Assembly: GCF_000950575.1 (NCBI RefSeq)
Contig: NZ_CP011005.1
Coordinates: forward strand, 310,001-374,000
Direction: 5' to 3'
DNA length: 64,000 bases
From: Psychromicrobium lacuslunae
GTDB lineage: Bacteria; Actinomycetota; Actinomycetes; Actinomycetales; Micrococcaceae
This document shows positions 37,544-53,479 of the stretch, piece after piece. Both the position numbers and the translations under genes were made by a program. Within the stretch, counting starts at the first letter, position 1, and every line of letters starts with the position of its first letter. Under the pieces are notes generated by a model, which was given only the letters and a program-made list of their open reading frames with translations, did no database searches and was not told the DNA's origin.

Positions 37544-38611
37544 CTAACCACCGATGGCGCTCATACTGCGCTCGGACTGCACGTAGTCAGCAGAATCCAG
37601 ACCAACGTGATCCATTCCGTGTGCTTTTGGCTTCGCCCACATCGCCTGCTGCCAGCGAGCGGCAATGGCATCGTCGTCGGCGTCGGAACGTAGCAGCGCG
37701 AGCAAATCGACCTCCTCGCGGGAGAACAGACAACTCATCACCTTGCCTTCGGCGGTGATTCGGGTGCGTCGGCAATCAGCGCAGAAGGGCTCAGTGACCG
37801 AGGCGATAATGCCAACGGTGCCCAGTAGCTCGGCCGAGTCGGGGAGTCTGACCTCGAAGCGTTCGGCTGGTGCACCGTCGCGCAGTCGGGGATCGGGTGC
37901 CAGTACAAAACGAGAAGAAAGCAACTCGCGGGTTTCTGCGGCGGTAATCATGCCCTCGCGAGTCCAGCCATGGTCGGCGTCCAGCGGCATCTGCTCAATG
38001 AATCGCAATTCAATGCTGCGCTCCAGGCACCAGGCCAGAAGCTCTGCTGCTTCGGCATCATTAATGCCGCGCATTAGCACAGCATTGACTTTTAGCGGGG
38101 TGAGCCCAGCCGCCAGCGCTGCATCGATACCTGCCAGAACCTGATCCAAGAACGGCCTACGAGTCAGCTGGGCGAAGGTCTCCGGGTGCAAAGAGTCCAG
38201 AGAGATATTGATCCGGCTCAGCCCGGCTTGCTTCAGGGCAGCGGCTTTTTTTGCTAGCCCGACGGCGTTGCTGGTCATTGAAATCGGTAGCTCAGGATGC
38301 GCGGCGCGGAGGCCGGCGATAATTTCCACCAGATCGGCCCGCACAAGTGGCTCGCCACCGGTGAGCCGGAGCTCCCGCACCGCCAAGGAATCCACCGCGA
38401 TTCGCACCAGCCGGAAAATCTCCGCGGCGGTGAGTACCTGGGAGCGCTGTAACCAGCTGAGTCCTTCGGCTGGCATGCAGTAGCTGCATCGCAGATTGCA
38501 CTTATCAGTCAGCGAGATTCGTAGATCGGTGGCGCGACGGCCAAAACGATCCAACAAACCGGAGGCAGCCGAGGGCATCCCCAGTTGAATCGGTGTTGCA
38601 GCGGTGACCAT
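37544..38611 (-). CDS. moaA: GTP 3',8-cyclase (MoaA)
   Basis: A 355-residue radical-SAM enzyme that catalyses the first step of molybdenum cofactor synthesis. The N-terminal cluster motif is C38-x3-C42-x2-C45 (DKCNLRCSYC), the SAM-binding GGEPLVR follows, and the C-terminal cluster ligands lie in FCADCRRTRIT and MSCLF. The protein ends in Gly-Gly (SAIGG), which MoaA needs for activity. TAGCGT lies six bases before the ATG, suggesting a leaderless moaA-moaD transcript divergent from modA. Confidence 0.97.
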   Translation of the reverse strand: MVTAATPIQLGMPSAASGLLDRFGRRATDLRISLTDKCNLRCSYCMPAEGLSWLQRSQVLTAAEIFRLVRIAVDSLAVRELRLTGGEPLVRADLVEIIAGLRAAHPELPISMTSNAVGLAKKAAALKQAGLSRINISLDSLHPETFAQLTRRPFLDQVLAGIDAALAAGLTPLKVNAVLMRGINDAEAAELLAWCLERSIELRFIEQMPLDADHGWTREGMITAAETRELLSSRFVLAPDPRLRDGAPAERFEVRLPDSAELLGTVGIIASVTEPFCADCRRTRITAEGKVMSCLFSREEVDLLALLRSDADDDAIAARWQQAMWAKPKAHGMDHVGLDSADYVQSERSMSAIGG

Positions 38612-38617
38612 GTATCT

Positions 38618-38623
38618 ACGCTA
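38618..38623 (-). promoter_or_regulatory. -10 hexamer TAGCGT, leaderless start of moaA
   Basis: On the minus strand TAGCGT ends six bases before ATG 38611. No ModE-like box is visible in the moaA-modA gap. Confidence 0.5.
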
Positions 38624-38718
38624 CGCCACTTAGCGCCGCTTGGCTGCCAGAAAGCTTACAAGCTGGAGACAAATGAGCGAGATAGCTCTCAAACCGTGCG
38701 ATTCCTCGGCCAAACACT

Positions 38719-38724
38719 TAGGCT
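38719..38724 (+). promoter_or_regulatory. -10 hexamer TAGGCT, leaderless start of modA
   Basis: TAGGCT ends six bases before GTG 38731. The AAGGA between them is too close to serve as a normal ribosome-binding site, which favours a leaderless transcript. Confidence 0.5.
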
Positions 38725-38730
38725 CAAGGA

Positions 38731-39582
38731 GTGACCTTTCATCGTTTCCGTTCAGCCGGAAAAGTCGTTTCGCTCTTGGTAGCGGCTAGCGCCTTGGCCT
38801 GGGGGGTTTCGGCCTGTAGCCCTAGTCCGGCTGACTCCGCTAAATCCGGTGAAGTGACCGTCTTCGCGGCGGCCTCGCTGACCGAGGTGATGAAGACCCT
38901 GACCGATACCTATCATCAGCAGAACTCGGGGACGAATTTCACCCTGAGTTACGCGGCGAGCTCCCAGCTGGTGCAGCAACTCAGCTCAGGGGCCAAGGCC
39001 GATATTTTGGTGACCGCCGATGAGGCGTCCATTGCTTCGATTGCCACCAAGACCAGCGAACCGATCCTCTCCGGCGGCACCACGATCATTGCCAGCAATA
39101 AGATCACACTGGCGATAGCGCCCGGCAACCCCGGCAAGATCTCCTCCCTGCAAGACGCCGCAGCGAGCAGCAAAGTCGCAGTCTGCGCGCCGAGCGTGCC
39201 CTGCGGACGGGCGGCCCAACGTGTTCTTGATGCCGCAAAGCTGAGCCTCAAACAGCCGAGCCAGGAAAACGATGTGAAGGCGGTGCTGACCAAAGTCTCA
39301 ACCGGGCAAGTGGACGCCGGATTCGTCTATAGCACCGATGCCAAGGCTGCCGCCTCCCAGGGTGTCAGCAGCGTTGAACTCAACGACCTCAAGCCGAATA
39401 AGTATCCCCTGGCTCTCACCGTAGCCGGGGCGAACAATGCTGCCGCTAAGGCTTTCCGGGACTGGCTAGCCGGGTCGGAAGCGGCGCAGATCTTGGCGCA
39501 AGCGGGCTTCGGTCCCGCCTCAGCCTCGACCGTCAGCTCCACGAGCAGCACGAGCAGCAGCTCACCGTCCAGCGGGAAGTAA
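38731..39582 (+). CDS. modA: Molybdate ABC transporter substrate-binding lipoprotein
   Basis: A 283-residue ModA. The N-terminus is a lipoprotein signal ending in VSACS (Cys near residue 29). The mature protein opens with VTVFAAASLTEVMKTLTD and contains TLSYAASSQLVQQL and the segment GQVDAGFVYSTDA, which shape the oxyanion pocket. A Ser/Thr-rich tail ends the protein. It captures molybdate outside the cell and hands it to ModB, encoded three bases downstream. Its placement beside moaA links uptake with cofactor synthesis. Confidence 0.95.
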   Translation: MTFHRFRSAGKVVSLLVAASALAWGVSACSPSPADSAKSGEVTVFAAASLTEVMKTLTDTYHQQNSGTNFTLSYAASSQLVQQLSSGAKADILVTADEASIASIATKTSEPILSGGTTIIASNKITLAIAPGNPGKISSLQDAAASSKVAVCAPSVPCGRAAQRVLDAAKLSLKQPSQENDVKAVLTKVSTGQVDAGFVYSTDAKAAASQGVSSVELNDLKPNKYPLALTVAGANNAAAKAFRDWLAGSEAAQILAQAGFGPASASTVSSTSSTSSSSPSSGK

Positions 39583-39585
39583 GCT

Positions 39586-40401
39586 TTGCAGGGTCGCACG
39601 AGCCATTTCATTCGCTCCACCTTGCCGGGCTGGTTGTGGTTACCAGCCGGACTGGCGCTCTTCCTGTGCGCCGGTCCGCTGATTGCCTTAGTGGTCCGGG
39701 CCCCTTGGCCTGAGTTGCCCGGCCTGCTGAGCAGCCCAGAGGCACTGCAATCGCTGGGGCTTTCACTCATCACCGCCCTCGCCTCAACCGTCGTCTGCGC
39801 CTTATTAGGCATGCCACTTGCAGTGATTCTGAGCAAGTTAACCGGTCCCTGGATTGGCTTGGCACGTGGTTTGCTCCTCATCCCCTTAGTGCTTTCACCG
39901 GTGGTCTCCGGCATAGCGCTGCTCTATTTCTGGGGTCGCAATGGCCTCTTCGGCGCGTTGCTCAACCAGGCGGGCATTGATGTGGGCTTTAGCCCTTGGG
40001 CGGTGATCCTGGTGCAAGTCTTCGTCTCACTGCCGTTCTTTGTGATTTCCGCGATGACCAGCCTGCGCAACGTGGAGCCCGAGATGGAAATGGTCGCTGC
40101 CACCAGTGGTGCGAGCGCCGGTCAGATTCTGCGCCATATCACCTTGCCCTTGGCGATGCCCGGGGTGCTGGTCGGTTCTCTGCTGGCTTTTGCCCGCTCA
40201 CTGGGGGAATACGGCGCCACGATCACCTTCGCCGGCTCGATCGCCGGCCGTACTAGAACCCTGCCGCTACAGATCGAACTGAGCCTCAATTCGAATCAGC
40301 CAGAAGCGGCCTTGGGCATCTCGTTGATGCTGATTGGTATTTACCTGGTGGTGTTGCTGCTCGCCAGGTTCGGCACCGGCCGACTACTGCCGCCAGCCTG
40401 A
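39586..40401 (+). CDS. modB: Molybdate ABC transporter permease
   Basis: A 271-residue permease with about six membrane segments and the ABC-coupling loop EMVAATSGASAGQILRHITLP. The start is TTG 39586, three bases after modA. Further hallmarks are SPVVSGIALLYFWGRNG and ARSLGEYGATITFAG. No modC ATPase gene follows: the end of modB overlaps by 61 bases the end of a glycosyltransferase gene on the other strand. The ATPase must be encoded elsewhere or be shared. Confidence 0.95.
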   Translation: MQGRTSHFIRSTLPGWLWLPAGLALFLCAGPLIALVVRAPWPELPGLLSSPEALQSLGLSLITALASTVVCALLGMPLAVILSKLTGPWIGLARGLLLIPLVLSPVVSGIALLYFWGRNGLFGALLNQAGIDVGFSPWAVILVQVFVSLPFFVISAMTSLRNVEPEMEMVAATSGASAGQILRHITLPLAMPGVLVGSLLAFARSLGEYGATITFAGSIAGRTRTLPLQIELSLNSNQPEAALGISLMLIGIYLVVLLLARFGTGRLLPPA

Positions 40402-41831
40402 GTTGCGGGCGATCGACGGCGCCAAAACCAGCCGGTGACCATTGCCAAGGCTGCCAAGAGCAAGGCAATCCGGCTGCTCAGCAGACCATCCGGCCAGCGG
40501 GCGAAATACACCACGGTGAGCGCAACCGGCACGGCAAGGTACTCAAAACGGCCGCCCAAAACCACGAAGGGCAGCAACAGCAGGCCGTACCAAGGGTAGC
40601 TAGGGCTAGCAATGAGCAAAGCCAGTGCGATCAACAAGGCTTGGGCGTCCCACGGTTTTGTCGGGTCCGTTCGACGCCACAGTAACAAGGCAATCATTAT
40701 CAGCAGGAGCGCGCCGATCGGAATCGCCCAGTTCGTTGGCAGGGCCCAACTGAGCAGCGCAAAACGGGGCGATGGGTGGGTAGCATCGTATCCCTCTTCA
40801 TTCAGGTATCCCGGTAGAAATCCCAGCACGGCCGGACCGGAGAGCAACAAATACGGTAGGTAGAGCAGCGCGAAGGTCCCCACCGAGAGCAGAATGAAAC
40901 GCCATGGCCTGCGGTAGAGCAAGCCCACGGCGGCGATCGCCGGGATCAGCTTGGCCGCCACCGCGGCACCAAACGCTACCGCTGATCCCAGCACTTTGCC
41001 TTTCGCCAGTAGCACCACCGCGAGCAGAGTCAGGCCGGCGCCCAGCAGATCCACATGCGCATTGTTAATGCCCTCAAAGATCAGTAGCGGACTCCAAGCC
41101 CACCAGGCGGCTCGGTCGGCGGCAGCTGGGAAGAGCCGGAGGAGCAGCGCGGAGATACCAAGACTCAGCAGCAGACCGGCGAGCTGGAAGCCAATAAAAC
41201 CTACTGAGTCAGGCCAAGCTAAACGGACCAGGAAGAAATAGATCTCCGCCGTGGCTGGGTAAATAGTGGGGACTTGAGGGCGATTGATAGCGAGGCAAAT
41301 ATCGCCCGAACGTTCCACGCCGGTAGGGAAGTCATCGGTGCGGCAACCACCTGCCTCAGCGGGCCGGAACAGCCAGGACGGCCGCAGCCGTTCCAAAGCT
41401 GGATCGACCGGCAGATATTGGTAAGGTGAAATGCCGTTTTTCTGGACGATGCCATCCCAGGCGTAACGCGCCGAATCATTACTGCTGGCCGGGGTGGCAC
41501 TGACCGCGGCTGAACCGAGCAATGTGCAGCCGATTAGTACCCAAGCTGCTGCCTTTCGCGGCTTGAGCGAGCGCAAGACAGTTCGTGCTACCAGCACCGC
41601 CAGGGTGAAAACCAGCCAGCACAGGATGGTGCCGCAGAGCAGCACGATACTGGCCGAAGGCGATGTCCGGCTAAGGCCGGGGATCAGCCAAGACAACCTG
41701 CTCAGATCGACTAAAAACCAGGTCAGCGCCGCGAGCAGGCAAAGCAGAGCGAGCAGCCAGGCCCCTAATGCTGGCCGACTGGCCGAGCTACTCCACCGCG
41801 GATTCAAATGCGGCCTGTGATCCTCTCGCAT
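40341..41831 (-). CDS. GT-C type membrane glycosyltransferase (GT87-like)
   Basis: 496 residues from ATG 41831, with CAGGATC upstream; the open frame runs to 41957. About eleven to thirteen membrane segments are predicted. After the early segments a large extracellular loop holds SSNDSARYAWDGIVQKNGIS and IYPATAEIYFFLVRL, the GT-C region carrying the catalytic acid. A later AKLIPAIAAVGLLYRRPW and SPSYPWYGLLLLP are typical of polyprenyl-phosphate-sugar dependent transferases. From memory the position and type resemble M. tuberculosis Rv0541c, the methylthioxylosyltransferase of lipoarabinomannan. Transfer of an envelope sugar outside the membrane is likely; the exact sugar is inference. Confidence 0.82.
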   Translation of the reverse strand: MREDHRPHLNPRWSSSASRPALGAWLLALLCLLAALTWFLVDLSRLSWLIPGLSRTSPSASIVLLCGTILCWLVFTLAVLVARTVLRSLKPRKAAAWVLIGCTLLGSAAVSATPASSNDSARYAWDGIVQKNGISPYQYLPVDPALERLRPSWLFRPAEAGGCRTDDFPTGVERSGDICLAINRPQVPTIYPATAEIYFFLVRLAWPDSVGFIGFQLAGLLLSLGISALLLRLFPAAADRAAWWAWSPLLIFEGINNAHVDLLGAGLTLLAVVLLAKGKVLGSAVAFGAAVAAKLIPAIAAVGLLYRRPWRFILLSVGTFALLYLPYLLLSGPAVLGFLPGYLNEEGYDATHPSPRFALLSWALPTNWAIPIGALLLIMIALLLWRRTDPTKPWDAQALLIALALLIASPSYPWYGLLLLPFVVLGGRFEYLAVPVALTVVYFARWPDGLLSSRIALLLAALAMVTGWFWRRRSPATQAGGSSRPVPNLASSNTTR

Positions 41832-41943
41832 GAACTGATCCTGTCGTATCAAGCGGGCACGGCGGGCTAATCTGAGGCATTCGTTTCGCTTTCGTAAGGA
41901 CTGCCCACTGCCATCGTGGAGGCCGCGGTGGTGTGATGAAGAG

Positions 41944-43107
41944 ATGGATCGAATCACCCGGATCTTGCAAAACCGAGTTGAGAGTTTCTCCCGCCGAATG
42001 CACTCGGGGACCCGTAGTACCAGGTTGACCGTGCAGCTCGGCCGTTGGCTCGGCCCGGCCTTTTTGCTGTGTTTCGTGACCGGGATTTTCTCCCACTTAC
42101 TCCAGGAGCCGGGGAGTCTTCCTCTCTTCCCGCTGCGTCCGGTGTGGATTTACCAACTCAGTCAGGGCGTCCATCTGGTGACCGGCATCGCTGCCATCCC
42201 GCTGTTGTTGGCCAAACTCTGGTCGGTCTATCCCGAACTATTGCGCTGGCCGCCGATCAGGAATCTCCGGGATGTCTTAGAACGAGGGTCGATAGCCCTT
42301 TTTGTCGCTGCGTCCTTGATCGAACTAACCATTGGTCTGATCAATACCTATAAGTGGTATCCCTGGCCCTTCCCGTTTCGCCAGACGCATTACTGGCTGG
42401 CTTGGCTGATCATTGGATCCTTGGTACTGCACATCGCCGTCAAGCTCCCGCTGATCGCTCGGCACTGGCGTAAGAACAAGGCTTTGAAAGATAGTCCTCG
42501 GCCCGTGGGTGGCTGGACTCGGCGTGGGCTTCTGACCGGCGTCGGGTTGAGCGCCACAGCGGTAGTTCTCAGCACCGCCGGCCAATCTTTTTCCTGGCTG
42601 GCTCCCTTCAACATCTTTGCACCAAGGCGTCAGAACACTGGTCCACAGGCGGTACCGGTGAATCGCAGCGCAGCTGAAGCAGGAATTAGCCCGGCCGCGG
42701 TGGGCGATGGCTGGCGCTTGCGCCTGGTCTATCGGGGCCGTTCGCTCGAGCTCAGTCTGCGGCAGTTGGGCCGATTGCCGATGGCCGAGTACGAATTGCC
42801 GGTGGCCTGTGTTGAAGGGTGGAGTCAGTCCGCGCGCTGGCGGGGAGTACCGGTACGTGATTTGGTCGCGCTGATGGGAGCGCCGGCAGGTTCGACGCTA
42901 CGGATAACCTCCTTGGAAGTGGCCGGAAATTACCGTCAGATGACTATGCCCGGAGCTTATAGCCAGGACGAGCAAACACTTTTGGCGCTTGAACTCAATG
43001 GTGAGCCGCTAGACCTAGATCATGGATTTCCGGCTCGGGTGATGGCCCCTGGGCGCCCCGGAGTATTACAGACCAAATGGGTCAGCTCGGTGGAGGTGCT
43101 CGGATGA
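41944..43107 (+). CDS. Molybdopterin oxidoreductase fused to a cytochrome b-like membrane domain
   Basis: A 387-residue protein. Four membrane segments (about residues 35-175) carry His residues in FSHLLQ, GVHLVTG, QTHYW and VLHIAVK, suited to heme b ligation. A twin-arginine motif TRRGLLTG (R193-R194) then precedes another hydrophobic stretch, and the rest is a sulfite-oxidase-fold molybdenum domain with the metal-ligand Cys at C289 in PVACVEGWSQ. It resembles a fusion of MsrQ- and MsrP-like parts (YedZ/YedY), turned so that the membrane part comes first. The Mo domain should lie outside the cell. The substrate is unknown; a sulfoxide or sulfide is my favoured guess. Confidence 0.85.
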   Translation: MDRITRILQNRVESFSRRMHSGTRSTRLTVQLGRWLGPAFLLCFVTGIFSHLLQEPGSLPLFPLRPVWIYQLSQGVHLVTGIAAIPLLLAKLWSVYPELLRWPPIRNLRDVLERGSIALFVAASLIELTIGLINTYKWYPWPFPFRQTHYWLAWLIIGSLVLHIAVKLPLIARHWRKNKALKDSPRPVGGWTRRGLLTGVGLSATAVVLSTAGQSFSWLAPFNIFAPRRQNTGPQAVPVNRSAAEAGISPAAVGDGWRLRLVYRGRSLELSLRQLGRLPMAEYELPVACVEGWSQSARWRGVPVRDLVALMGAPAGSTLRITSLEVAGNYRQMTMPGAYSQDEQTLLALELNGEPLDLDHGFPARVMAPGRPGVLQTKWVSSVEVLG

Positions 43108-43562
43108 AAGCCAGAGCCGTGGCAAAGGCGAGCCGGATGATGGTGTTCCGGCTCGCGCTTGGCTTGCTGGGGGTGTTGTTAATTGCCTTTGGGCTGATTG
43201 GTATTCCGAGCCAGTTGAACCTCGGGGAGATGCTTGGGCTGTTGTCCTGGCTGGCTGTGGCCTTGCTGCTGCACGACGGCGTTTTGGTCCCGTTAACCCA
43301 GCTCTCCGGCGCGGGGCTGCGCCGACTCAGCTACGGACTGCGGCAAAGCTCTGCTGCGGTAATCCGAAGTGCTCTGCTGATCGGCGCGGTCCAGAGCCTG
43401 ATAGTTCTGCCGTTACTCAAGGCGCAGCAGGTGGCTAAACAAGAGTCAGTGCTAGAGGGGGACTACCTGGCAGCATTAGTCGTTTTCTGGCTAGTTTTGG
43501 CGGTGGTGACGGCGGCGTCAGTATTCATGATCGAATGGCGTGCGCGGATCAGAGACCACTAG
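43104..43562 (+). CDS. Small membrane protein coupled to the molybdo-oxidoreductase
   Basis: 152 residues from ATG 43104, in a four-base overlap (ATGA) with the gene before it. Four membrane segments: residues about 13-33, 40-62, 85-105 and 118-140. A single His-Asp pair lies in the loop or helix end [15 protein letters not shown], and the C-terminus is basic. I recognise no family. Tight coupling suggests a subunit or assembly partner of the molybdo-oxidoreductase. It converges with the methyltransferase gene with a four-base overlap. Confidence 0.82.
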
Positions 43563-44275
43563 CGGCGACGGAGTAAACAAAAGGTTCGCTCTCCCTTCCG
43601 CACTGTTCGGGCTGGTTCCCAGCCGTGCTTGGGTGCGAGCCTGCTGAGCGCGCCAAGACCGAACCTAGCCCAGTTGAACGGGTCGCTTCGCCTCCCTTGG
43701 GAATCCTCCAGCACCGCTGTATAGCGTTGTGCTATTTGCTCGTCGATATCGGTTTCGACAATGAGCGTGCCCCTCGAAGCGGTCAAAGTATGCAGCCGCT
43801 GAAGTAACCGATCGGGGTTCCCTTCGATGCCTATATTGCCGTCCAGCAACAACACAGCAGAAAAATAGTGTGTTTCAAGCCGGCCCGGCAGCGGGTCGAA
43901 AATGGATTGTTGCAGCACCACTAAACCCTTGGCTCGAGCCTGGTCGGCCGCGAATGGGTGCGGCTCGACACCCCAGGCTTCGGTCCCCAGACGCTCGGCT
44001 GCGTTCAGCATCCGCCCAGGGCCGCAGCCGACGTCAAGCAGTGGGCCGGTAACTTGTCGAAGCAGTCGGCGTTCAATCGGCTGCGCCGCAGCAGCCCAAT
44101 CCTGTAACTGGAATCGCATCGGTGTCACCCGGCCAGCTAGATCGATAGTGCTCAACACACCATGTTGTTGGTTTAGTGCCCTGGTGTAGGGCTCGTCAGC
44201 ACCTCGACCAAAGAACCGCGGGACCTGGTCCTCGCTGGTGTTGAGGGCTTCTGCACTGCTCAATTCGGTGCTCAT
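43559..44275 (-). CDS. Class I SAM-dependent methyltransferase
   Basis: 238 residues from ATG 44275, overlapping the upstream gene's stop by four bases. The SAM-binding motif [12 protein letters not shown], the acidic residue after strand 2 in [13 protein letters not shown] and a later [16 protein letters not shown] mark a Rossmann methyltransferase. The C-terminal part ends in RTFCLLRRR. It is the third gene of the unit GT2-DUF2064-methyltransferase. The acceptor is unknown; an envelope sugar or lipid intermediate would fit the neighbours. Confidence 0.88.
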
Positions 44276-44937
44276 TGGCTGCTGTTCAGATCGAGAAGGG
44301 TTTCCAATTCGAACACGAACTCGGCAAAAGCTGAGCCAGCACATTGCCTAGCGGCTTGCCGAGCGTCATCGAAATAGTCAACATCGCGCAGCCGCGGCAG
44401 CATGCCCACCGAAAGGCCAGCGTCCAGTAACCGCTGATACTGATCGGTTCCGGTGCGCTCGGTGGACATTGGCACGCCGAGAAGGTGTTCTGGTTGCGGA
44501 TTAGCCAGCGCGAGCGCCCAGAAACCGCCGTCCGCCGCCAGCCCAAGCCAGCCGTCGAATTGCGGCCGCGGATCGGCCCAGTCCTCGAGGAGCTGGTTGA
44601 ATTCGCTCAACTGGAGCTGCGGAGTGTCCATGCCCAAAATAAGCAGCGGCCCCGGCACTGCGGCGCAGATCGCAGCCAGCCTGACATCCAACGACCCTGG
44701 GACCTGTTGGAGTAGCCGAAATCCCGCTGCATCGGCTGGCTCGGGAGTGCCATCAAAAACCAGTAATTGCTGCCGGGGCGCGAATCGCCGGACTAAAGCT
44801 AGAGTCTGGCTGAGACTGAGTTGCGCCAGCCTGGCTGCTTGTGCTGCCGTGAGCGGCGGGCTGAGACGGGTTTTTACCCGGCCCGGCAGACATTCTTTGG
44901 CCATCACCGCGATGGTCAGCTCGCGCAACCTGTTCAT
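44272..44937 (-). CDS. DUF2064 (TIGR04282) family transferase
   Basis: 221 residues from ATG 44937, within an ATGA overlap. The CofC-like nucleotidyltransferase/glycosyltransferase fold shows [20 protein letters not shown] at the N-terminus, then [13 protein letters not shown], then [18 protein letters not shown]. The GDP/sugar-type Asp residues in GMDTPQ and AADGG are kept. Relatives act in arsenosugar or selenoneine clusters, and M. tuberculosis Rv0540 belongs here next to the GT2 protein Rv0539. The reaction in this family is not settled; sugar-nucleotide or sugar-phosphate transfer is the general expectation. Confidence 0.88.
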
Positions 44938-45590
44938 GGTAGCTCCCTCAGTTGCCGGTTCATATCGATCACCGCATGCAGGACACCCTGGAGCGTACCG
45001 GTGACCTTGGAACGGCCGATGCGTGGCCGGTAGCTGACCGGAAGTTCGGTGATTTTCCAGCCAACGCGGTGCGCTTTGAGCAGCATTTCTAGGGGATAGC
45101 CGCTGCGTCGATCCAGCAAGCCGAGGCTGAGCAGCGCCTCTCTGCGAGCCAACCGCAGTGGGCCGAGGTCGGTCAATGGCAAGCCGGTGCGGTGCCGCAA
45201 TCGACGGGCCAACGCGGCATTGGCGCAGCGCGCGTGTAGCGGCCACGAACCCGCCGATGGCTGCCGGGCGCCGAGCACCAGATCGCTGCTGCCATGTTCC
45301 ACCAAGGCACGGAAGAGATTTAGCTCCCGTGGATCGAGCGAGTCATCGGCATCGCAAAAAGCTACTAGCGGAGCAGTAGCCGCAAGCAAACCGGCATGCG
45401 CGGCGCTGCCGAAACCTCGACGCGGCTCCCGGACCACCAACGCGCCAAGGTCTTGCGCGAGCGTTGCGGAACCGTCGCTGCTGCCGTTATCCACCACGAT
45501 GGCCCGAGCCTCCGTCGGCAACTTGGCCAGCACTACCGGCAGTGCAGCAGCCTCATTGAGGCAGGGAAAGACGATATCAATCTGAGTCAC
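44934..45590 (-). CDS. Family 2 glycosyltransferase (polyprenyl-phosphate sugar synthase type)
   Basis: A 218-residue GT2 protein. It opens with IDIVFPCLNEAAALPVVLAK, followed by AIVVDNGSSDGSA and the metal-binding Asp segment LVAFCDADDSLD. It lacks C-terminal membrane helices, like DPM1-type soluble synthases. It heads a unit of three genes with ATGA overlaps. TAGCGT stands six bases before its GTG. From memory, the M. tuberculosis counterpart Rv0539 was linked to decaprenyl-phosphate-methylthioxylose synthesis (MtxS), but sequence identity needs checking. Confidence 0.88.
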   Translation of the reverse strand: MTQIDIVFPCLNEAAALPVVLAKLPTEARAIVVDNGSSDGSATLAQDLGALVVREPRRGFGSAAHAGLLAATAPLVAFCDADDSLDPRELNLFRALVEHGSSDLVLGARQPSAGSWPLHARCANAALARRLRHRTGLPLTDLGPLRLARREALLSLGLLDRRSGYPLEMLLKAHRVGWKITELPVSYRPRIGRSKVTGTLQGVLHAVIDMNRQLRELP

Positions 45591-45596
45591 TCTTCG

Positions 45597-45602
45597 ACGC
45601 TA
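45597..45602 (-). promoter_or_regulatory. -10 hexamer TAGCGT, leaderless start of the GT2 gene
   Basis: On the minus strand TAGCGT ends six bases before GTG 45590. The same hexamer and spacing precede moaA. Confidence 0.5.
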
Positions 45603-45698
45603 GATTTTCGTGACCGGAAAAGGCAGCGGAATTTATTACAGAACTGGGACGCTTGGTGGCCAAACGGACGATCCGCAGCAAAAGGAGTGACTGAATCC

Positions 45699-45704
45699 TA
45701 TGCT
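45699..45704 (+). promoter_or_regulatory. -10 hexamer TATGCT, leaderless start of the response regulator
   Basis: TATGCT ends six bases before GTG 45711; the GGAAGG between them abuts the start codon. Confidence 0.5.
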
Positions 45705-45710
45705 GGAAGG

Positions 45711-46505
45711 GTGGCACATTACAGCGCTAGCAAAGCTAACCTCCAAGCTTCAGCGCTGCCCGGAGTGCCAGAGGTCGGTAACCGCAAGATTTTGCTGGTG
45801 GAAGATGAAGAGCTAATCGCGGCAGTGGTCAGAGACTACCTGCTCAGGGCCGGTTATCAAGTGGAACTCGCCACCGATGGTTTTACCGCCCTGCACCTAG
45901 CGGCCGAGAGCAACCCAGACCTGATCATTCTTGACCGAATGCTGCCCGGACTCGACGGGGCAGAGGTGTGCCGTCGAATTCGCAAGACGATGAACATGCC
46001 GATTATCCTGCTCACCGCCTTAGGGACCGAGGACGATCGCATTCTCGGTCTGGAAATGGGGGCTGATGACTACGTCACTAAGCCCTTTTCCCCGCGTGAA
46101 CTGGTGCTCCGGGTACATTCCGTGCTGCGCCGAAGTGTCAAGGAATTCGCTCCGGAGCCGACGGTGGAGTTGGCCGGGTTCAGCCTCAACCCGGCGGCTC
46201 GGCAGGTCCAACTGCACGGCGAGATGCTTGCCTTGACCGCCCGTGAGTTTGATCTACTAGCTTTTTTCTTGCGCCGACCGCAGCAGGTCTTCAGCCGTGA
46301 GGAGCTGATCAAGGCGGTCTGGGGCTGGGACTTCGGGGACCTTTCCACGGTAACCGTCCACGTCCGTCGGCTACGCGAAAAAATCGAAAAAGACCCAACG
46401 CATCCCACGCTGCTGCATACCGTCTGGGGCGTTGGCTACCGCTTTGACCCGGAGCCGGTAGAACCGGAGCGGCCAGCACCGAGTAACTCCCAGGGGCAGC
46501 CATGA
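45711..46505 (+). CDS. OmpR/PhoB family response regulator
   Basis: 264 residues from GTG 45711; the frame is open upstream to 45396, but that part overlaps the GT2 gene and has no homology. The receiver domain has KILLVEDEELI with its acidic pair, the phosphorylated Asp in IILDRMLPG, the Thr in ILLTALG and the Lys in VTKPFSP. A winged-helix DNA-binding domain follows (LTAREFDLLAFFLRRPQQVF, VTVHVRRLREKIEKDP). It is coupled by a four-base overlap to the sensor kinase and then to a molybdo-oxidoreductase, its likely target. Confidence 0.94.
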   Translation: MAHYSASKANLQASALPGVPEVGNRKILLVEDEELIAAVVRDYLLRAGYQVELATDGFTALHLAAESNPDLIILDRMLPGLDGAEVCRRIRKTMNMPIILLTALGTEDDRILGLEMGADDYVTKPFSPRELVLRVHSVLRRSVKEFAPEPTVELAGFSLNPAARQVQLHGEMLALTAREFDLLAFFLRRPQQVFSREELIKAVWGWDFGDLSTVTVHVRRLREKIEKDPTHPTLLHTVWGVGYRFDPEPVEPERPAPSNSQGQP

Positions 46506-47674
46506 GCTTCGCCAATATCCTCACGGTTTTACTCTGGGTTCTTGGCTGGACGGTGTTGATCGGCGGGCTCACCATCATTGCACAACGCTTGCTTCGTCGG
46601 TCCTCGATCGTGGTACAGATCTGTTTGGTGGTTTTTGCCACTGTAGCTGTACTCATCGCCGGGGTGGTCAGTGCGATGAATGCCATGTTCATCTCCGCTT
46701 CCAACGTCGAGGTGCTTTGGTACATTCTGGCCATTGCCTCACTGATGGCTGTCGTGGTGGCCCTGGTTCTCGGCTTCGGGCTCTCCCGCTACACCTCGAG
46801 ACTGGTGCGTGAGACGCGCGATATCGGCCTCGGCAAGACGGTTGCTCCAGAGCGACGAATGACCTCAGAGTTGGCCGCGCTGGCCACCGAACTTCAGCTC
46901 ACCAGTGAGAAACTCGAGCAATCTCGGCGGCGTGAGGCGGCGATCGAAGCTGCCCGTCGTGAGCTGGTCAGTTGGGTTTCGCATGATTTACGCACCCCCT
47001 TGGCGAGTATGAAAGCGATGACCGAGGCCTTGCAAGACGGGGTGGTCAGTGATGTCTCCGGATATCATCAGAAAATCATTAATCAAGCTGATCAGATGGC
47101 GGTCTTGGTTAATGATTTGCTTGAACTTTCCACTATTCAGTCGGGTGCGTTGGTGCTTGATTTGAAGCCCATTGACCTCTACGACCTGATCAGCGACGCT
47201 ATCGCTGACCTGAAACCATTAGCGGTTGCTCGCAAGATCAGCATCGATGGCGACGCTGTGCATAGTGCGGTGCTCAGTGTTGATGGTGCGCTAATGGGCC
47301 GGGTGATTCGGAACCTCATTCTGAACGCCATTAACTACTCACCCGAGGGATCGACCGTCTGGCTTGGCACCGCCGTGGTGCTGACCGAATCCAAGCAGGC
47401 GAGCGTCGAGGACCGAAAATACGCGAGCATCGAAGTGAGCGATGAATGCGGCGGCATTGCGGAGCAAGACCTGAGCCGGCTATTTGAAGCGGGCTGGCGG
47501 AAAAGCCCGGAACGCCGAAGCTCAGCGTTTAGCGGCGCTGGGGTGGGCCTCAGCACGGTCGCGGGTATCGTCGCCACCCACCGCGGCGAGGTGAGCGTGC
47601 AGAATACCGAGCTTGGCTGCCGTTTCGTTGTGCAAATACCTTTGAACGGGGTGGCTGATGAACAAGCAATCTAA
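46502..47674 (+). CDS. Membrane sensor histidine kinase
   Basis: A 390-residue kinase. Three hydrophobic segments in the first 105 residues (about 5-25, 35-60, 75-98) leave almost no external sensor domain, so it may sense membrane state or a protein partner. A short linker leads to the HisKA domain with phospho-acceptor H161 in SHDLRTPLASMKAM, then the ATPase domain with N-box RNLILNAINYSPEGS and GVGLSTVAGIV. The three-gene unit with the response regulator and a molybdo-oxidoreductase suggests that these jointly respond to an envelope redox signal. Confidence 0.93.
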   Translation: MSFANILTVLLWVLGWTVLIGGLTIIAQRLLRRSSIVVQICLVVFATVAVLIAGVVSAMNAMFISASNVEVLWYILAIASLMAVVVALVLGFGLSRYTSRLVRETRDIGLGKTVAPERRMTSELAALATELQLTSEKLEQSRRREAAIEAARRELVSWVSHDLRTPLASMKAMTEALQDGVVSDVSGYHQKIINQADQMAVLVNDLLELSTIQSGALVLDLKPIDLYDLISDAIADLKPLAVARKISIDGDAVHSAVLSVDGALMGRVIRNLILNAINYSPEGSTVWLGTAVVLTESKQASVEDRKYASIEVSDECGGIAEQDLSRLFEAGWRKSPERRSSAFSGAGVGLSTVAGIVATHRGEVSVQNTELGCRFVVQIPLNGVADEQAI

Positions 47675-49244
47675 GCCGGCGCTACTCTGGGCGGCGCTCT
47701 GCGGTGTGCTAGCCGTGGGTTTTGGTTTGTTGGCCGCCGAACTGGTGGCGGGGTTCCTGAGCCCTTCGCTTTCCGCTGTGACGGCGGTCGGCGGAACAGT
47801 GATCGATGTAGTACCGCCGGGTGTCAAGGATTGGGCGATTGCCAGCTTTGGCACCTCGGATAAATTCTTTTTCCTGATCGGCATGGCGCTGGTGATTGCC
47901 ATCCTTGCGGCTTTGGCCGGGATTCTCGAGCTCAAACGAAAGAGCTGGGGTCTGGTGGCGGTTGGCATTTTTGGCTTGCTGGGCTTGCTCGCTGTGCTTG
48001 CGCGTTCAGCCGGCAGCCTGGCGGGTAATGGTGTTTTGGTGCTGGTCTCGCCGTTGCTAGCAGCGGCACTGAGCATTGTGCTGCTGCGCGTGCTGATCAA
48101 TCGGCTGCGCGGCTGGCGAGCTGTCGCAGGCAGCCTGCAGAACCTGGACGAGGCTTCGCGGACTCAGCCAGCCGGCCAAGAACGCAGGCTATTTCTCCGC
48201 AATATCGGGCTCAGCGCGGCAGCAACCGCACTGACGGCCTTAGTCACCGCGGCGATCAGGGGGTCCCAGGCTGCCTATCAAGCCGCCCGGGAGAAACTGA
48301 AACTCCCGATGGCCCAACAAGCGGCCGCGCCAATTTCGGCGAACGCGCAGCTCGCCCTGAACGGCATAACTTCCTTGGTCACGCCCAATAAACAGTTCTA
48401 TCGGATTGATACCGCGCTCGCGGTACCGGTCATAAACCCCAATGATTGGCAGCTTAAAGTAACCGGTCTGGTGGATCGCGAAATCAGCATGAACCTGGCT
48501 GAGCTTCTCAATCAGCCAATGCAGGAGCGCTACGTCACGATTGCCTGCGTTTCTAACGAGGTTGGTGGCGACCTGATCGGCAACGCGCGCTGGCTGGGCT
48601 GGCCGGTGCGCGAGATCTTGGCCAAAGCCGGGGTGAAACCGGGAGCGGATATGGTGCTCTCCCGAAGCTCCGACGGTTTCACTGCGAGCACCCCGTTGCA
48701 GGCGATGACGGACCAGCGGGACGCGATGATCGCCGTCGGGATGAATGGTGAACTATTGCCCGCCGAGCACGGCTTCCCCGCTCGGCTGATCGTGCCCGGC
48801 CTCTATGGTTTTGTCTCGGCGACGAAATGGCTCACCGAGCTGAAAGTGACTACCTTCGCTGCGGACGTGGCTTATTGGTCGACTCGGGGCTGGTCGGATC
48901 ACGGGCCGATCAAGCAGTCATCGCGAATTGATCTGCCGCGCTCCGGCTCTGCTGTACCCGCCGGCCCTACCGTATTAGGTGGGATGGCCTGGGCCCAGCA
49001 ACGCGGGGTGAGTAAAGTGGAGTTGAGCGTGGACGGCGGTGACTGGCAGCCAGTCAAACTGGCTAGCGCCATTTCGAAGGACACCTGGGTGCAATGGCAG
49101 GCCGAATTGATGCTCGACCGTGGCGAACATCAAGTGCGGGTTCGTTGCGTCGACGGCCTCGGTGAGGTGCAGAGTTCGGAAGTGGCACCGCCAGCCCCGG
49201 ATGGCTCTAGCGGCTATCACCAAATAACACTCCGAGTCGGCTGA
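47658..49244 (+). CDS. Membrane-anchored sulfite-oxidase-fold molybdenum oxidoreductase
   Basis: A 528-residue protein starting 17 bases inside the kinase gene. Four membrane segments without His occupy residues 1-150. An internal twin-arginine motif, RRLFLRN at R176-R177, precedes a fifth hydrophobic stretch. The external part has the sulfite-oxidase Mo domain (ligand Cys C297 in IACVSNEVGG, then ARWLGWPVREILA) and a C-terminal Mo-co dimerisation domain (VSKVELSVDGGDWQPVKLA). Unlike the protein at 41944 it lacks candidate heme ligands, so it must pass electrons differently. A sulfite or organosulfur substrate is plausible. Confidence 0.9.
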   Translation: MNKQSKPALLWAALCGVLAVGFGLLAAELVAGFLSPSLSAVTAVGGTVIDVVPPGVKDWAIASFGTSDKFFFLIGMALVIAILAALAGILELKRKSWGLVAVGIFGLLGLLAVLARSAGSLAGNGVLVLVSPLLAAALSIVLLRVLINRLRGWRAVAGSLQNLDEASRTQPAGQERRLFLRNIGLSAAATALTALVTAAIRGSQAAYQAAREKLKLPMAQQAAAPISANAQLALNGITSLVTPNKQFYRIDTALAVPVINPNDWQLKVTGLVDREISMNLAELLNQPMQERYVTIACVSNEVGGDLIGNARWLGWPVREILAKAGVKPGADMVLSRSSDGFTASTPLQAMTDQRDAMIAVGMNGELLPAEHGFPARLIVPGLYGFVSATKWLTELKVTTFAADVAYWSTRGWSDHGPIKQSSRIDLPRSGSAVPAGPTVLGGMAWAQQRGVSKVELSVDGGDWQPVKLASAISKDTWVQWQAELMLDRGEHQVRVRCVDGLGEVQSSEVAPPAPDGSSGYHQITLRVG

Positions 49245-49250
49245 GATCGG

Positions 49251-50312
49251 CTAGTTTGAGGTTGCGCTCGGTCGAAGCGGCGCCCGAGCGAATTGTCGAA
49301 TGCCGGCTTCGAAGTCGAGCTGCGGACGCCAACCGAGCTCTCGGCGAATCCGGGCTGAACTAGCGGTGATGTGCCTGACATCCCCGAGTCGGTACTCCCC
49401 GGTGATGATCGGTGGAACGCCGTCCAGTGCCTGGGAAAGCGCAGTGGCGAGCTCGCCAATAGTGTGAACGCGTTCAGCGCCAACATTGTAGGCCCGGAAT
49501 TCTGGCCCCGATTCGGTGAGCTGGTCTAAGCACGCTAAATTAGCCGCAGCCACGTCCTGCACGTCGACGAAGCTTCGCCGTTGCTGACCATCCTCGAAAA
49601 CTCGGGGTGCCTCGCCGCGGGCCAAAGCGCTGCGAAAAATGCTGGCAACACCGGAATACGGCGTATTCTGTGGCATTCCGACGCCATAAACGTTGTGATA
49701 ACGCAAGGCAATCGCCCGTGAACCGGTCTCGCGGGACCAGTTCGCGGCGAGGTGTTCCTGCGCCAGCTTGCTGCTGGCGTAGACATTCCGTGGATCGAGC
49801 CGAGCGTCTTCGTCAACCAGACCGGGAGAAAGTAACTTGCCGGTCTGCGGATCCCGTGGCTCAAAGATTCCAGCGGCCAAGTCGCGTTCGAGCCGAGCCG
49901 CGGGCCGCAGCTGAGCTCCGGCGTCGTTGTAGTAAACACCTTCGCCATAGACCACCATGGAAGAAGCGAGCACCAGGTTTTTTACTCCCGCTTCCGCCAT
50001 TCCCGCGAGCAATACGGCGGTGCCGCCCACATTGCTCGTGACGTAATCGGGTGCGTCTTGGAAACTGACGCCCAGGCCGACTTTCGCGGCTTGGTGGCTT
50101 ACCGCGTCAACTCCTCGCAAAGCCCGCCGGACAGCTGAGGGATCGTTGACCGAGGCCTTGATGAGTTCAGCACCGGCGGGAATCGGCGGAGCGGTGCAGT
50201 GCACTTCGGCCGCCAAGCTATCTAAGAGTCTCACCTGCCAGCCGGCCCGTAGCGCCGCCTTCGCCAGCGCTAGACCGATGAAGCCCGCGCCACCGGTGAT
50301 CAGCAACCTCAT
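49251..50312 (-). CDS. NAD-dependent sugar epimerase/dehydratase
   Basis: 353 residues from ATG 50312, one base after the upstream gene's stop; a GTG at 50321 is an alternative. The extended short-chain reductase fold shows LLITGGAGFIGLALAKAALR, and TSNVGGTAVLL. The Ser/Tyr/Lys active site appears as ASSMVVYGEG and NVYASSKLAQE, where the Tyr and Lys are spaced YxxxK. The pairing with MTA phosphorylase matches M. tuberculosis Rv0535-Rv0536 (galE3). Epimerising a ribose-derived sugar to xylo form would fit a methylthioxylose pathway, which is inference. Confidence 0.9.
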   Translation of the reverse strand: MRLLITGGAGFIGLALAKAALRAGWQVRLLDSLAAEVHCTAPPIPAGAELIKASVNDPSAVRRALRGVDAVSHQAAKVGLGVSFQDAPDYVTSNVGGTAVLLAGMAEAGVKNLVLASSMVVYGEGVYYNDAGAQLRPAARLERDLAAGIFEPRDPQTGKLLSPGLVDEDARLDPRNVYASSKLAQEHLAANWSRETGSRAIALRYHNVYGVGMPQNTPYSGVASIFRSALARGEAPRVFEDGQQRRSFVDVQDVAAANLACLDQLTESGPEFRAYNVGAERVHTIGELATALSQALDGVPPIITGEYRLGDVRHITASSARIRRELGWRPQLDFEAGIRQFARAPLRPSATSN

Positions 50313-50313
50313 C

Positions 50314-51156
50314 TCAGGCACCGGCCGAGGTAGGTAGTTGCAGGACCGCCGCTACCGCGGCGGCGGGAACCCGTTCTTGTGGTTGATAGCTGGCGGCCAG
50401 TTTGCTGACCAGCACGCTCAGCACGGCCTGAATTCGCGGCTGCGCCTCACCTAACCGGGACATCACCAGCGCAGCGCTCACCGGTTCGGAACCGTCATGC
50501 CCAGTATCCGCGTCGGTGATATAGGCAAGGGCGGCATAGCCCAAATTGAGTTCGGCGGCCAGTACTGGTTCGGGGTACTGAGTCATGCTGATCAACTCGG
50601 CTCCGGCGGCAGTGAGCCAAGCAGATTCGGCCGGGCTGGAGAAGCGCGGACCGTTGATCACGGCGACCACTGCTTGCTGCTGATGAGGTTCGGCGAGCTC
50701 CCGCAAGCTGTCAATGAGTAGGCTGCGTAACTGCGGGCAGAAGGCGTCGGCCGCCGGTAAGTGTTGCACCCCAGCGGCTGAACCGCCGTCGTAAAAAGTG
50801 TCGGCACGCCCCCAGGTCCGATCAAAAAAATCGCTAATCACACTGAAACTGCCGCGCGGTTGGCCGGCCACGAGCGAGCCAACCGCGGCCGAGGAGATCA
50901 CCGCACGTACCCCCACTGAGGCGAGTGCCCAAAGGTTGGCGCGATGGTTGATCTGCTGTGGAGCTACTCGATGCGCGGGCCCGTGCCGCGGCAAAAAGGC
51001 GAGCAACTGGTCATTGAACTTCACCATGCTGATCGCCGCCGAAGGCGAACCAAAAGGTGTTTCCACGTTCAGTTGGTCAAGCAGCTGGCTACCGGGCAAC
51101 TGATACATTCCACTGCCACCGATCACCGCCAGAGTTGGTCTCCATTCAGTTTTCAT
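50314..51156 (-). CDS. Methylthioadenosine phosphorylase family protein
   Basis: A 280-residue PNP/MTAP-type phosphorylase. It shows the phosphate-binding VIGGSGMYQL, LPRHGPAHRVAPQQINHRAN, INGPRFSSPAE and the MTQYPEPVLAAELNLGYAAL segment typical of MTA phosphorylase. It would split methylthioadenosine into adenine and 5-methylthioribose 1-phosphate. In most bacteria that feeds methionine salvage, but no mtn or mtk genes are nearby; instead an epimerase and glycosyltransferases are. CAGAAT stands six bases before the ATG, so the transcript may be leaderless. Confidence 0.93.
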   Translation of the reverse strand: MKTEWRPTLAVIGGSGMYQLPGSQLLDQLNVETPFGSPSAAISMVKFNDQLLAFLPRHGPAHRVAPQQINHRANLWALASVGVRAVISSAAVGSLVAGQPRGSFSVISDFFDRTWGRADTFYDGGSAAGVQHLPAADAFCPQLRSLLIDSLRELAEPHQQQAVVAVINGPRFSSPAESAWLTAAGAELISMTQYPEPVLAAELNLGYAALAYITDADTGHDGSEPVSAALVMSRLGEAQPRIQAVLSVLVSKLAASYQPQERVPAAAVAAVLQLPTSAGA

Positions 51157-51168: not shown

Positions 51169-51264
51169 TCAAGCAGCAACGACGATGAGGCGAGTGAAGG
51201 CTTACGAAACGAGGACATTATTGACTGCTGACGTTCGCTCACAGCTAGCGCGTCGCCGAACTGG

Positions 51265-51276: not shown

Positions 51277-52512
51277 ATGAGAACCGTCGCCGAACATCAA
51301 GCCGCGGTCAGTGAGTTACTTTCACCAATGCTCTCTCGACTGATTGATGAAGCAGAGCTGGTGCCGCTGGATGCGGCTTTGCATCGGATCCTTTCCGAGG
51401 ACCTCTTGGCCACCATTGCGCTGCCACCTTTCAATAATTCCCAGATGGACGGCTACGCGGTGCGTGCCGCGGAGAGCGGTGCCGAGTTGCGGGTGGCGGC
51501 TGCTATCGCGGCCGGTAGCGATCCAGCCGAGCTGCCGCCCGGCCACGCTGCGCCGATCATGACCGGAGCGAAGCTGCCGCCCGGGGCGGACGCCGTGGTG
51601 CAGGTCGAAGTAGCCGAACCGGCGCGGTTTCTCCCGGTAGGGGAGAAGGTCCGCTTGCCGGAAGTGCTGGTGGGGCAGTTCGTGAGGGCTTCCGGCAGTG
51701 ACCTCGCCGAAGGCGCTTGTGCACTAGCTGCCGGAACCCGTTTGAGTGCAGCCGCGCTCGGATTAGTAGCTGCCTTGGGAATCACCGAGGTCCGAGTCCA
51801 GCGCCGGGTGCGGGTGGCGCTGTTCAGCACCGGGGATGAGGTGCGGCAGCCGGGTGAGCTGCTTGAACCAGGCAAGATTTACGACGCTAATTCGACGCTG
51901 CTGAGCAGCGCACTGAGCGAGGTCGGCGCCGAAGTGGTGGTTTTGCCGGCGATAGCCGACCGAGCCGAGGCGGTTGAACAGCTTGTGCAGAACTTGCCTG
52001 AGGTCGATCTGCTGATCAGCAGCGGCGGGATTAGCCAGGGAGCCTTTGAGGTGGTGAAGCAGGCGTTCTCCACTGCTCAAGGGGACTCGCAATCCGCCCG
52101 GGTAGAGTTCCATGCCGTGGCCATCCAGCCAGGCGGCCCGCAGGCACTCGGCACCGTGTCTGGTGCCAGCCAAGTCGAGCGGCTCAAGGCAGCCGAACCA
52201 AGCTCAGAGATTGCCTTCCTCGGCTTCCCGGGCAACCCGGTGAGTAGCTGGCTGTCCTACGAAATGTTTCTTCGCCCCTTATTGGCTGAGCCTCGGCGAC
52301 GAATAACAGCACGACTGGCAGCAGCAACCAGCAGCCCGGTCGCCAAACAGCAAATGCGCCGCGGCGTCCTTGAGAATGGTCAGGTGCGGCTGATCGGTGG
52401 TCCGAGCTCGCATTTACTGCATTCACTCGCCGAGGCCAATGCCCTGGTGGTCTTGCCGCTCGGCCAAGATCACTTTGCCGCCGGGCAAGAAGTGGAAGTA
52501 TGGCTACTATGA
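51277..52512 (+). CDS. moeA: Molybdopterin molybdotransferase
   Basis: A 411-residue MoeA that inserts molybdate into adenylylated molybdopterin. The N-terminal part has [15 protein letters not shown] and [17 protein letters not shown], the central MogA-like domain has [14 protein letters not shown] and [15 protein letters not shown], and the C-terminal part has [15 protein letters not shown]. All expected sections are present. It leads the operon moeA-moaC-mogA-moaE with four-base overlaps between the first three genes. Confidence 0.97.
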
Positions 52513-53006
52513 GTGATCCTGGAATGACTGAGATGACTGGACTGACCCACCTGAATGCGGCCGGGGAGGCGCTGATGGTTGATGTTTCGGCGAAGGACCC
52601 CAGCCATCGAGAAGCCAAAGCTCAAGCGGTGCTGAACACCCAGCCCGAAGTGCTAGCTCTGCTGAGCAACGGCGGGCTGCCCAAAGGCGATGCGCTCGCG
52701 GTGGCCCGAGTGGCCGGGATCATGGCCGCCAAGAAGACCTCGGAACTGATCCCGCTTTGCCATCCCCTTCCGCTCAGTAAGGCGCAGATTGACTTTGAGC
52801 TCGGCGATGATGCCATCAGAATCCTCGCCCTTGTGCGCACCCTCGGGGTGACCGGGGTAGAGATGGAAGCCCTCACCGCCGCCAGCGTCGCAGCCCTTAC
52901 GCTCTACGACATGATCAAAGCCGTTGATAAGCGAGCGGTGATCGGCGAGATCAAATTGCTCGCCAAATCAGGTGGCAAGAGTGGCAATTTTGAGGCTGAA
53001 GCATGA
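52509..53006 (+). CDS. moaC: Cyclic pyranopterin monophosphate synthase
   Basis: 165 residues from ATG 52509, in an ATGA overlap with moeA; ATG 52500 would add three residues. MoaC makes cyclic pyranopterin monophosphate from the MoaA product. The signature [19 protein letters not shown], the [20 protein letters not shown] helix and the catalytic Lys region [12 protein letters not shown] are intact. Confidence 0.97.
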
Positions 53007-53479
53007 ACCGGAGGGCAGGAATCGTGGTGGCATCCACGCGTGCCGCCCACGGTGAGCGGCCGGACACCAGTGCGGCGCCTCTGAGCGAATGGTTGCGAGC
53101 ACAGGATCTAGAGCCGTTGCCGGTCGCTATTGTTGCCGATGGCGAACCGGTCCGAAACGCCATCGAAGAGCTGCTCGCGGCGGGTGCTTCGCTGATCCTG
53201 ACCACCGGCGGCACCGGCCTAACAGCTGATGACCTCACCCCGGAGGTCACCAAGCCGTTACTGGAGCGTGAGATCCCTGGAATTATGGAGGCGATCCGGG
53301 CGCTCGGCATGACGAAAACGCCCACCGCGGCGCTGAGTCGCGGCTACGCTGGCGTGGTTGGCCGCTGCGTCGTGGTGAATTTGCCCGGTTCCTCGGGCGG
53401 CATTAAAGATGGCTTGACGGTTCTCACCCCGTTGCTGCGTCATCTTCTGGAACAAATTGAAGGTAGCCATGAGCATTGA
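53003..53479 (+). CDS. mogA: Molybdopterin adenylyltransferase (MogA/MoaB type)
   Basis: A 158-residue protein that adenylylates molybdopterin before molybdate insertion. The motif [18 protein letters not shown] holds the catalytic Asp pair, and [17 protein letters not shown] is the C-terminal conserved loop. It overlaps moaC by four bases and moaE by 11. Whether it is orthologous to MogA or MoaB of other groups cannot be settled by eye. Confidence 0.92.

Follow-up and report, generated by a model that had tools for sequence, protein, structure and literature searches.

Do the molybdenum enzymes that lie among a set of actinobacterial methylthio-sugar genes belong with that set, and what would they do there? 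The question is raised by a locus of Psychromicrobium lacuslunae in the 64,000-nucleotide stretch that we analysed (the window; contig NZ_CP011005.1, C1:310001-374000 of a genome of 3.6 Mb in two contigs). An earlier note had described sugar genes, two molybdenum enzymes and a two-component system between 40341 and 51156, and every gene that it named there was confirmed by Pfam or NCBIfam matches. The flanking genes for molybdenum cofactor (Moco) synthesis and molybdate uptake were also found, with moaA, modA and modB on one side and moeA, moaC, mog and moaE on the other. The reading that we prefer, tentatively and at somewhat less than an even chance, is that the locus encodes an extended and regulated counterpart of the methylthioxylose (MTX) pathway of mycobacteria, in which one molybdenum enzyme, SO2, reduces a sugar sulfoxide in an organism seemingly without arabinan.

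Clustering of SO2 with the sugar genes

SO2 (41944..43107, plus strand; Oxidored_molyb) combines a five-helix, heme-b-like membrane part with a molybdopterin domain whose predicted position is external. The minus strand carries a NAD-dependent epimerase (EPI; 49251..50321; PF01370), proposed to act at C3 of a methylthio-sugar, and overlapping it a phosphorylase of the methylthioadenosine phosphorylase (MTAP) type (50314..51156; TIGR01694). On the same strand lie GT2 (44934..45590; PF00535), an MtxS-like protein proposed to be a polyprenyl-phosphate sugar synthase, a DUF2064 protein (44272..44937), a class I S-adenosylmethionine-dependent methyltransferase (MT; 43559..44278; PF13489) and a GT-C membrane glycosyltransferase of the GT87 type, proposed as the terminal transferase (40341..41831; PF09594, 1.1e-10). 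The DUF2064 protein, a proposed nucleotidyltransferase, scored 95.5 bits with TIGR04282 (cut-off 134) and 24.5 bits with CofC (cut-off 105); its mechanically called open reading frame begins too early, and since the homology begins near 44937, the gene and GT2 overlap by a few bases. The plus strand encodes an OmpR-family response regulator (RR; 45780..46505, start approximate, with homology from near 45780; PF00072, PF00486), a histidine kinase (HK; 46502..47674; PF00512, PF02518) and SO1, a second membrane molybdopterin oxidoreductase whose gene overlaps that of the kinase (47658..49244; PF00174, 149.8 bits).

Searches of 118 genomes, the source genome included, returned GT-C matches in 13; an epimerase with an E value of 1e-80 or below was also present in 13. 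Comparison of 19 fetched stretches from relatives revealed that SO2, GT2, DUF2064 and MT were all present in each of the 12 stretches with an orthologous epimerase, accompanied by RR and HK in 10, MTAP in 10, a GT87-type GT-C in nine and SO1 in five. Three stretches around paralogous epimerases contained none of SO2, DUF2064 and MT, and three around weak GT-C matches had none of the other sugar genes. One genome has an additional locus (L056) in which GT-C, SO1, SO2 and Moco genes occur but the epimerase does not.

An epimerase profile extended the comparison to the best 80 of at least 584 confirmed relatives, from taxa that include Arthrobacter, Pseudarthrobacter, many Microbacteriaceae, Streptomyces, Kitasatospora and Saccharopolyspora. 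Within the 58 of these loci that are full-length (stretches of at least 20 kb), we detected GT2 in 57, DUF2064 in 57, MT in 50, SO2 in 44, MTAP in 36, RR and HK in 30 and SO1 in four. SO2 was missing from the fetched flank in 27 of the epimerase genomes; 24 of them have it elsewhere, and the other three are metagenome-assembled genomes. In a survey of the class covering 393 genomes, the epimerase was present in 181 (169 by a strict count), SO2 in 148 and both in 145 (Fisher 4e-68, shared ancestry uncorrected), and by the strict count just four of the 148 SO2 genomes were without the epimerase. Counted by genus, the epimerase occurs in 46 of 123 and SO2 in 34 of 123. Among the matches listed, the two genes lie within 20 kb of each other in 97 of 122 genomes, at a median distance of 5.2 kb. 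The recurrence of the set in relatives and across the survey rules out a chance neighbourhood. A genomic link of a molybdenum enzyme to the sugar genes is supported for SO2, which accompanies the set and clusters with it across the class; SO1, found in eight of the 80 loci, and the Moco genes adjoin the set in certain lineages only.

The Moco and molybdate genes of the window occupy 51277..53933 (moeA, moaC, mog and moaE, plus strand) and 37544..40401 (moaA on the minus strand, modA and modB on the plus strand). Downstream of SO2 lies TM161 (43077..43562, plus strand), a small hydrophobic protein that was absent from the earlier list and that gave no match in Pfam and NCBIfam searches; it is present in 41 of the 58 full-length loci, near SO2 in many loci, and may be a partner of SO2. 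Near the cluster, 33785-36277 on the minus strand encodes an 830-aa adhesin-like surface protein with SpaA_2, CshA-repeat and fn3 domains. At a locus of the same genus (L050), the MT, MTAP and HK matches are in pieces, hence frameshifts or decay. A contig labelled as an Acidimicrobiales metagenome-assembled genome (L139) carries Moco genes, MTAP and an epimerase 64% identical to that of the window; a high-scoring SO2 lies at another place in that genome, and the contig may be misbinned.

A direct repeat in the promoters of the cluster

GT2 and RR are divergent in 55 loci, and TTAC[GA] occurs in 50 of the 55 intergenic regions, the five without it being Mycobacterium-type loci. The longer form TTAC[GA]NA was found in 46 of the 55 (shuffle mean 1.35, largest 5), and a second half, [GA]AC[GA], follows at about 11 bases in 34 (shuffle mean 0.25, largest 1). 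In the window this operator-like 11-bp direct repeat is TTACAGAACTGGGACG, in the divergent GT2/RR promoter (45636..45651, plus strand), with a score of 20.1 on a position weight matrix trained on 50 GT2/RR promoter sites. With this matrix, the window contained seven hits scoring at least 9, no excess over shuffled sequence (mean 5.4), four scoring at least 13 (shuffle mean 0.76, largest 4) and two scoring at least 20 (none in 50 shuffles), one of these two being a training site. The other, TTACGAAACGAGGACA (51202..51217, plus strand), lies between MTAP-EPI and moeA-moaC-mog-moaE; it was not among the training sites, and its score of 23.2 exceeds the training median of 21.8. A further hit (16.0, at 46019) falls within the regulator gene. 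The remaining site, TTACGAAAGCGAAACG (41882..41897, minus strand; score 13.8), lies between GT-C and SO2, where the likelier GT-C start, ATG at 41831 rather than GTG at 41957, leaves 112 bases to SO2.

As the site at 41882 is modest alone, the claim that SO2 is regulated through the repeat rests on other loci. Sites of at least 13 bits, in counts that treat related genomes as separate, occur upstream of SO2 in 39 of 79 cases, against 14 of 3929 random background windows of the same loci. They were also found upstream of GT-C (16/61, in part in the region common with SO2), EPI (16/111), MTAP (12/67), moeA (5/26) and DUF2064 (2/101), and none was detected upstream of SO1 (0/15), moaA (0/10), MT (0/85) or HK (0/50). 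The SO2 site is present in 33 of 50 loci with RR and HK, compared with five of 28 without them. Direct-repeat spacing of 11 bp is typical of OmpR-type regulators; from this spacing and from the promoter position of the repeat we infer that RR binds it. The shared repeat is consistent with the control by the kinase pair that had been suggested earlier, since it would link SO2 with GT2/RR and, in this genus, with MTAP and moeA. The new element here is the TTAC-led repeat of the GT2/RR promoters that recurs upstream of SO2.

We claim no wider regulon. The pattern TTACRRAASNRRRACR was composed from the three window sites, so its exact hits at these sites are by construction; elsewhere in the 3.6 Mb it has one further exact match, and with up to one mismatch it gave 15 hits, fewer than the 25 of a reversed control.

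Relation to the mycobacterial MTX pathway

MTX is a residue of the lipoarabinomannan of the tuberculosis complex (PMC10675199), and its genes are described as a five-gene cluster (PMC5911930) in which, for M. tuberculosis, MtxS is given as Rv0539 and MtxT as Rv0541c (PMC8780516). For comparison we used a compact locus (L159) with the gene order AMP-ligase, GT-C without a Pfam match, DUF2064, GT2, DUF7937, EPI, MTAP, a UbiA-type (menA-like) gene and an ACP-synthase-III (fabH-like) gene, which we take to be the order of Rv0542c-Rv0533c. Its genus was taken as Mycobacterium because each of four genomes tested contains three Emb-type arabinosyltransferases (PF04602). The window proteins are 52% (EPI), 51% (GT2), 39% (MTAP) and 34% (DUF2064) identical to those of this locus, and these values, together with the synteny of the MTX cluster, support the earlier view that EPI and GT2 are relatives of the tuberculosis-type set. 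In EPI, Y180/K184 and the nucleotide-binding glycines are invariant. The nearest solved relatives of GT2 are ArnC and dolichol-phosphate mannose synthase, both polyprenyl-phosphate sugar synthases, in agreement with its proposed role as a probable loader of polyprenyl phosphate.

The resemblance is partial. MTAP, epimerase, an MtxS-type GT2 and DUF2064 are shared with the M. tuberculosis cluster, to which the window adds MT, SO2, TM161, HK, RR, SO1 and Moco genes, but the expected MtxT-type GT-C is not there: the window GT-C belongs by sequence to another family (GT87), and comparisons by HMMER and hhalign with the GT-C type of L157, L158, L159 and L161 gave nothing. A single-sequence query found no MtxT-type homologue in the window genome. 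Pathway variants with exchangeable terminal transferases are suggested by these two results, and such exchange would fit differing acceptors; within the 58 full-length loci, a GT87-type GT-C occurs in 40, an MtxT-type in six, both in one and neither in 13. The window genome has no Emb-type arabinosyltransferase (PF04602), a further difference from M. tuberculosis, whose MTX acceptor is the lipoarabinomannan mannose cap; an acceptor built on arabinan is therefore unlikely here, on this indirect ground. DUF2064 had been regarded as a transferase; according to what is reportedly argued in a 2017 MTX paper, it more likely makes a nucleotide sugar. Four other loci of the comparison genus (L157, L161, L162 and L164) hold MTAP, EPI, GT2, DUF2064, an MtxT-type GT-C, MT, HK, RR and SO2 together.

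With TIGR01694 the window MTAP scores under the equivalog threshold (241.6 bits against 274.85) and still looks like a 5'-methylthioadenosine (MTA) phosphorylase, because it aligns with solved MTAPs along the greater part of its chain. Of the three PF01048 genes in the genome it is the sole one of MTA type, the remaining two being purine nucleoside phosphorylases. In the class survey, MTAP occurs in 138 of 169 strict EPI genomes and in 60 of 224 genomes without EPI. The survey test did not detect it in the remaining 31 EPI genomes, 25 of which retain SO2, and in these either another route to the sugar phosphate or a different sugar would be used. Five phosphorylase-family genes from four of the 31 (one each in G149, G441 and G218, two in G286) comprised two purine nucleoside phosphorylases and three nucleosidase-like proteins that score under the cut-offs and are of mixed MTA/futalosine type. 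We also considered whether a missing mtnA might indicate a single fate for methylthioribose-1-phosphate. This was rejected, as in 80 genomes chosen from 198 MTAP-positive ones no association was seen (EPI-positive 13 of 42, EPI-negative 14 of 38, three of the latter having a low-scoring epimerase). The window genome itself gave no mtnA match.

In the pathway that we propose, MTAP would convert MTA to methylthioribose-1-phosphate, DUF2064 would turn this into a nucleotide sugar, EPI would invert C3 from ribo to xylo, GT2 would place the sugar on polyprenyl phosphate and the GT87-type GT-C, in place of MtxT, would transfer it to a surface glycan, with the methyltransferase perhaps contributing an additional group. 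SO2 would draw electrons from quinol and pass them via hemes b to an external molybdenum site, where the methyl sulfoxide of the sugar would be reduced to methyl sulfide, much as MsrPQ regenerates methionine. Through the common 11-bp direct repeat, the two-component system would govern GT2-DUF2064-MT, its own operon and SO2, and in this genus probably also MTAP-EPI and moeA-moaC-mog-moaE.

Possible role of SO2 and of the proposed surface sugar

H77, H149, H163, R193, R194 and C289 of SO2 are invariant in 40 sequences, and the predicted model places H77 in helix 2 and H149 and H163 in helix 4. The PF00174 match reaches residue 385 of 387; the molybdenum domain is thus terminal and no second sulfite-oxidase domain follows. 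By architecture SO2 may be compared with the Sco3746 family, described as five-helix heme-Moco proteins that need Sec and Tat and whose fused membrane architecture is likened there to MsrPQ (PMC5449189). SO2 likewise has five helices, three conserved membrane histidines, a twin arginine before the last helix (helix 5) and a C-terminal Moco domain, but a residue fingerprint for identity with Sco3746 itself reached at most 5/8. From MsrP/MsrQ (YedYZ) of E. coli, which has a two-component system of its own, it differs in being a single fused chain, in its link to sugar genes and in its sequence, which is nearer to sulfite oxidases: with MsrP (PRK05363, cut-off 207), SO2 scored 21.4 bits and SO1 56.3 bits. 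SO1 is SoxC-like (128 bits, cut-off 420). The window genome has a third gene of the sulfite-oxidase fold, near C1 2060403 (L180:2904-3365), which is SoxC-like at 82 bits. In five loci (L063, L064, L123, L135 and L137) the SO2 match is in two pieces, either an MsrQ/MsrP-like split or frameshifts. One Mycobacterium-type genome has an SO2 homologue (L163:8667-10130) away from its sugar locus (L158), which shows none.

Several points weigh against a methylthio-sugar kept reduced by SO2. The fold of SO2 does not tell reduction from oxidation, mtnA is not associated with EPI in the genomes compared, and the 31 EPI genomes without MTAP require another explanation. We know of no methylthio-sugar from these non-mycobacterial organisms, and M. 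smegmatis carries the MTX genes with no MTX reported. Pathway and SO2 might belong together with electrons flowing to quinone, SO2 turning the methylthio group into the sulfoxide or oxidising another group of the glycan. The molybdenum domain is closest, by fold and sequence, to sulfite oxidases and SoxC, and MTX has been reported also as the sulfoxide. The lack of a second sulfite-oxidase domain and the comparison of the fused membrane part with a reductase by the describers of Sco3746 argue the other way, and we consider oxidation quite unlikely.

If instead another envelope sugar were made, MTAP would be an ordinary gene for MTA disposal, placed in the operon in some lineages, and the substrate of SO2 would be a different portion of the glycan or proteins of the envelope. 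The MTAP-less genomes, the sub-equivalog score of the window MTAP and the absence of a detectable methyltransferase from the compact locus L159 are compatible with this, and as the sole MTA-type gene of the genome MTAP has a housekeeping reason to exist. Against it stand the enrichment of MTAP in EPI genomes, the overlap of MTAP with EPI, the repeat that precedes MTAP in 12 of 67 loci and the possession of EPI and GT2 in common with the MTX-type locus, and we regard it as unlikely. Partly overlapping with this explanation is the possibility that SO2 is a general, MsrPQ-like repair enzyme for methionine sulfoxide in the envelope, set beside glycan genes only through a common envelope-stress regulator. 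The common repeat and regulator would agree with this, as would the repair of periplasmic methionine sulfoxide that accounts of E. coli MsrPQ describe; the finding that nearly every SO2 genome also has the strict epimerase is unlike what is expected of a general repair enzyme, and such a role seems quite improbable.

For the preferred reading, that SO2 reduces a methylthio-sugar sulfoxide, the idea that the sulfur has a redox role has precedents: a 2009 paper is said, by its title, to concern a carbohydrate substrate of mycobacterial MsrA, and antioxidative properties have been proposed for MTX (PMC10503756). In the literature searched, from which subscription papers were mostly absent, we found nothing joining methylthioxylose with molybdenum (a weak negative), no molybdenum enzyme or two-component system tied to MTX and no mention of 'DUF2064'. 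Our data suggest that many actinobacteria maintain the oxidation state of the sulfur of a surface sugar by means of a co-regulated molybdenum enzyme. A bolder extension, which we think somewhat unlikely, is that the surface methylthio-sugar serves across Actinomycetes as a renewable redox buffer, converted to the sulfoxide by oxidants and re-reduced by quinol-driven SO2, with one two-component system making both on demand and in some genera driving Moco synthesis too. If this were true, the MTX of tuberculosis lipoarabinomannan would be a reduced remnant, in which the enzyme had been lost or had come to be encoded apart from the sugar genes. The link between SO2 and the sugar genes provides a substrate hypothesis for the five-helix heme-molybdenum proteins, and the repeat points to a candidate regulon marked by a defined DNA site. 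Given the related sugar genes in Arthrobacter, Microbacteriaceae, Streptomyces and others, methylthio-sugars would be a widespread feature of the actinobacterial envelope.

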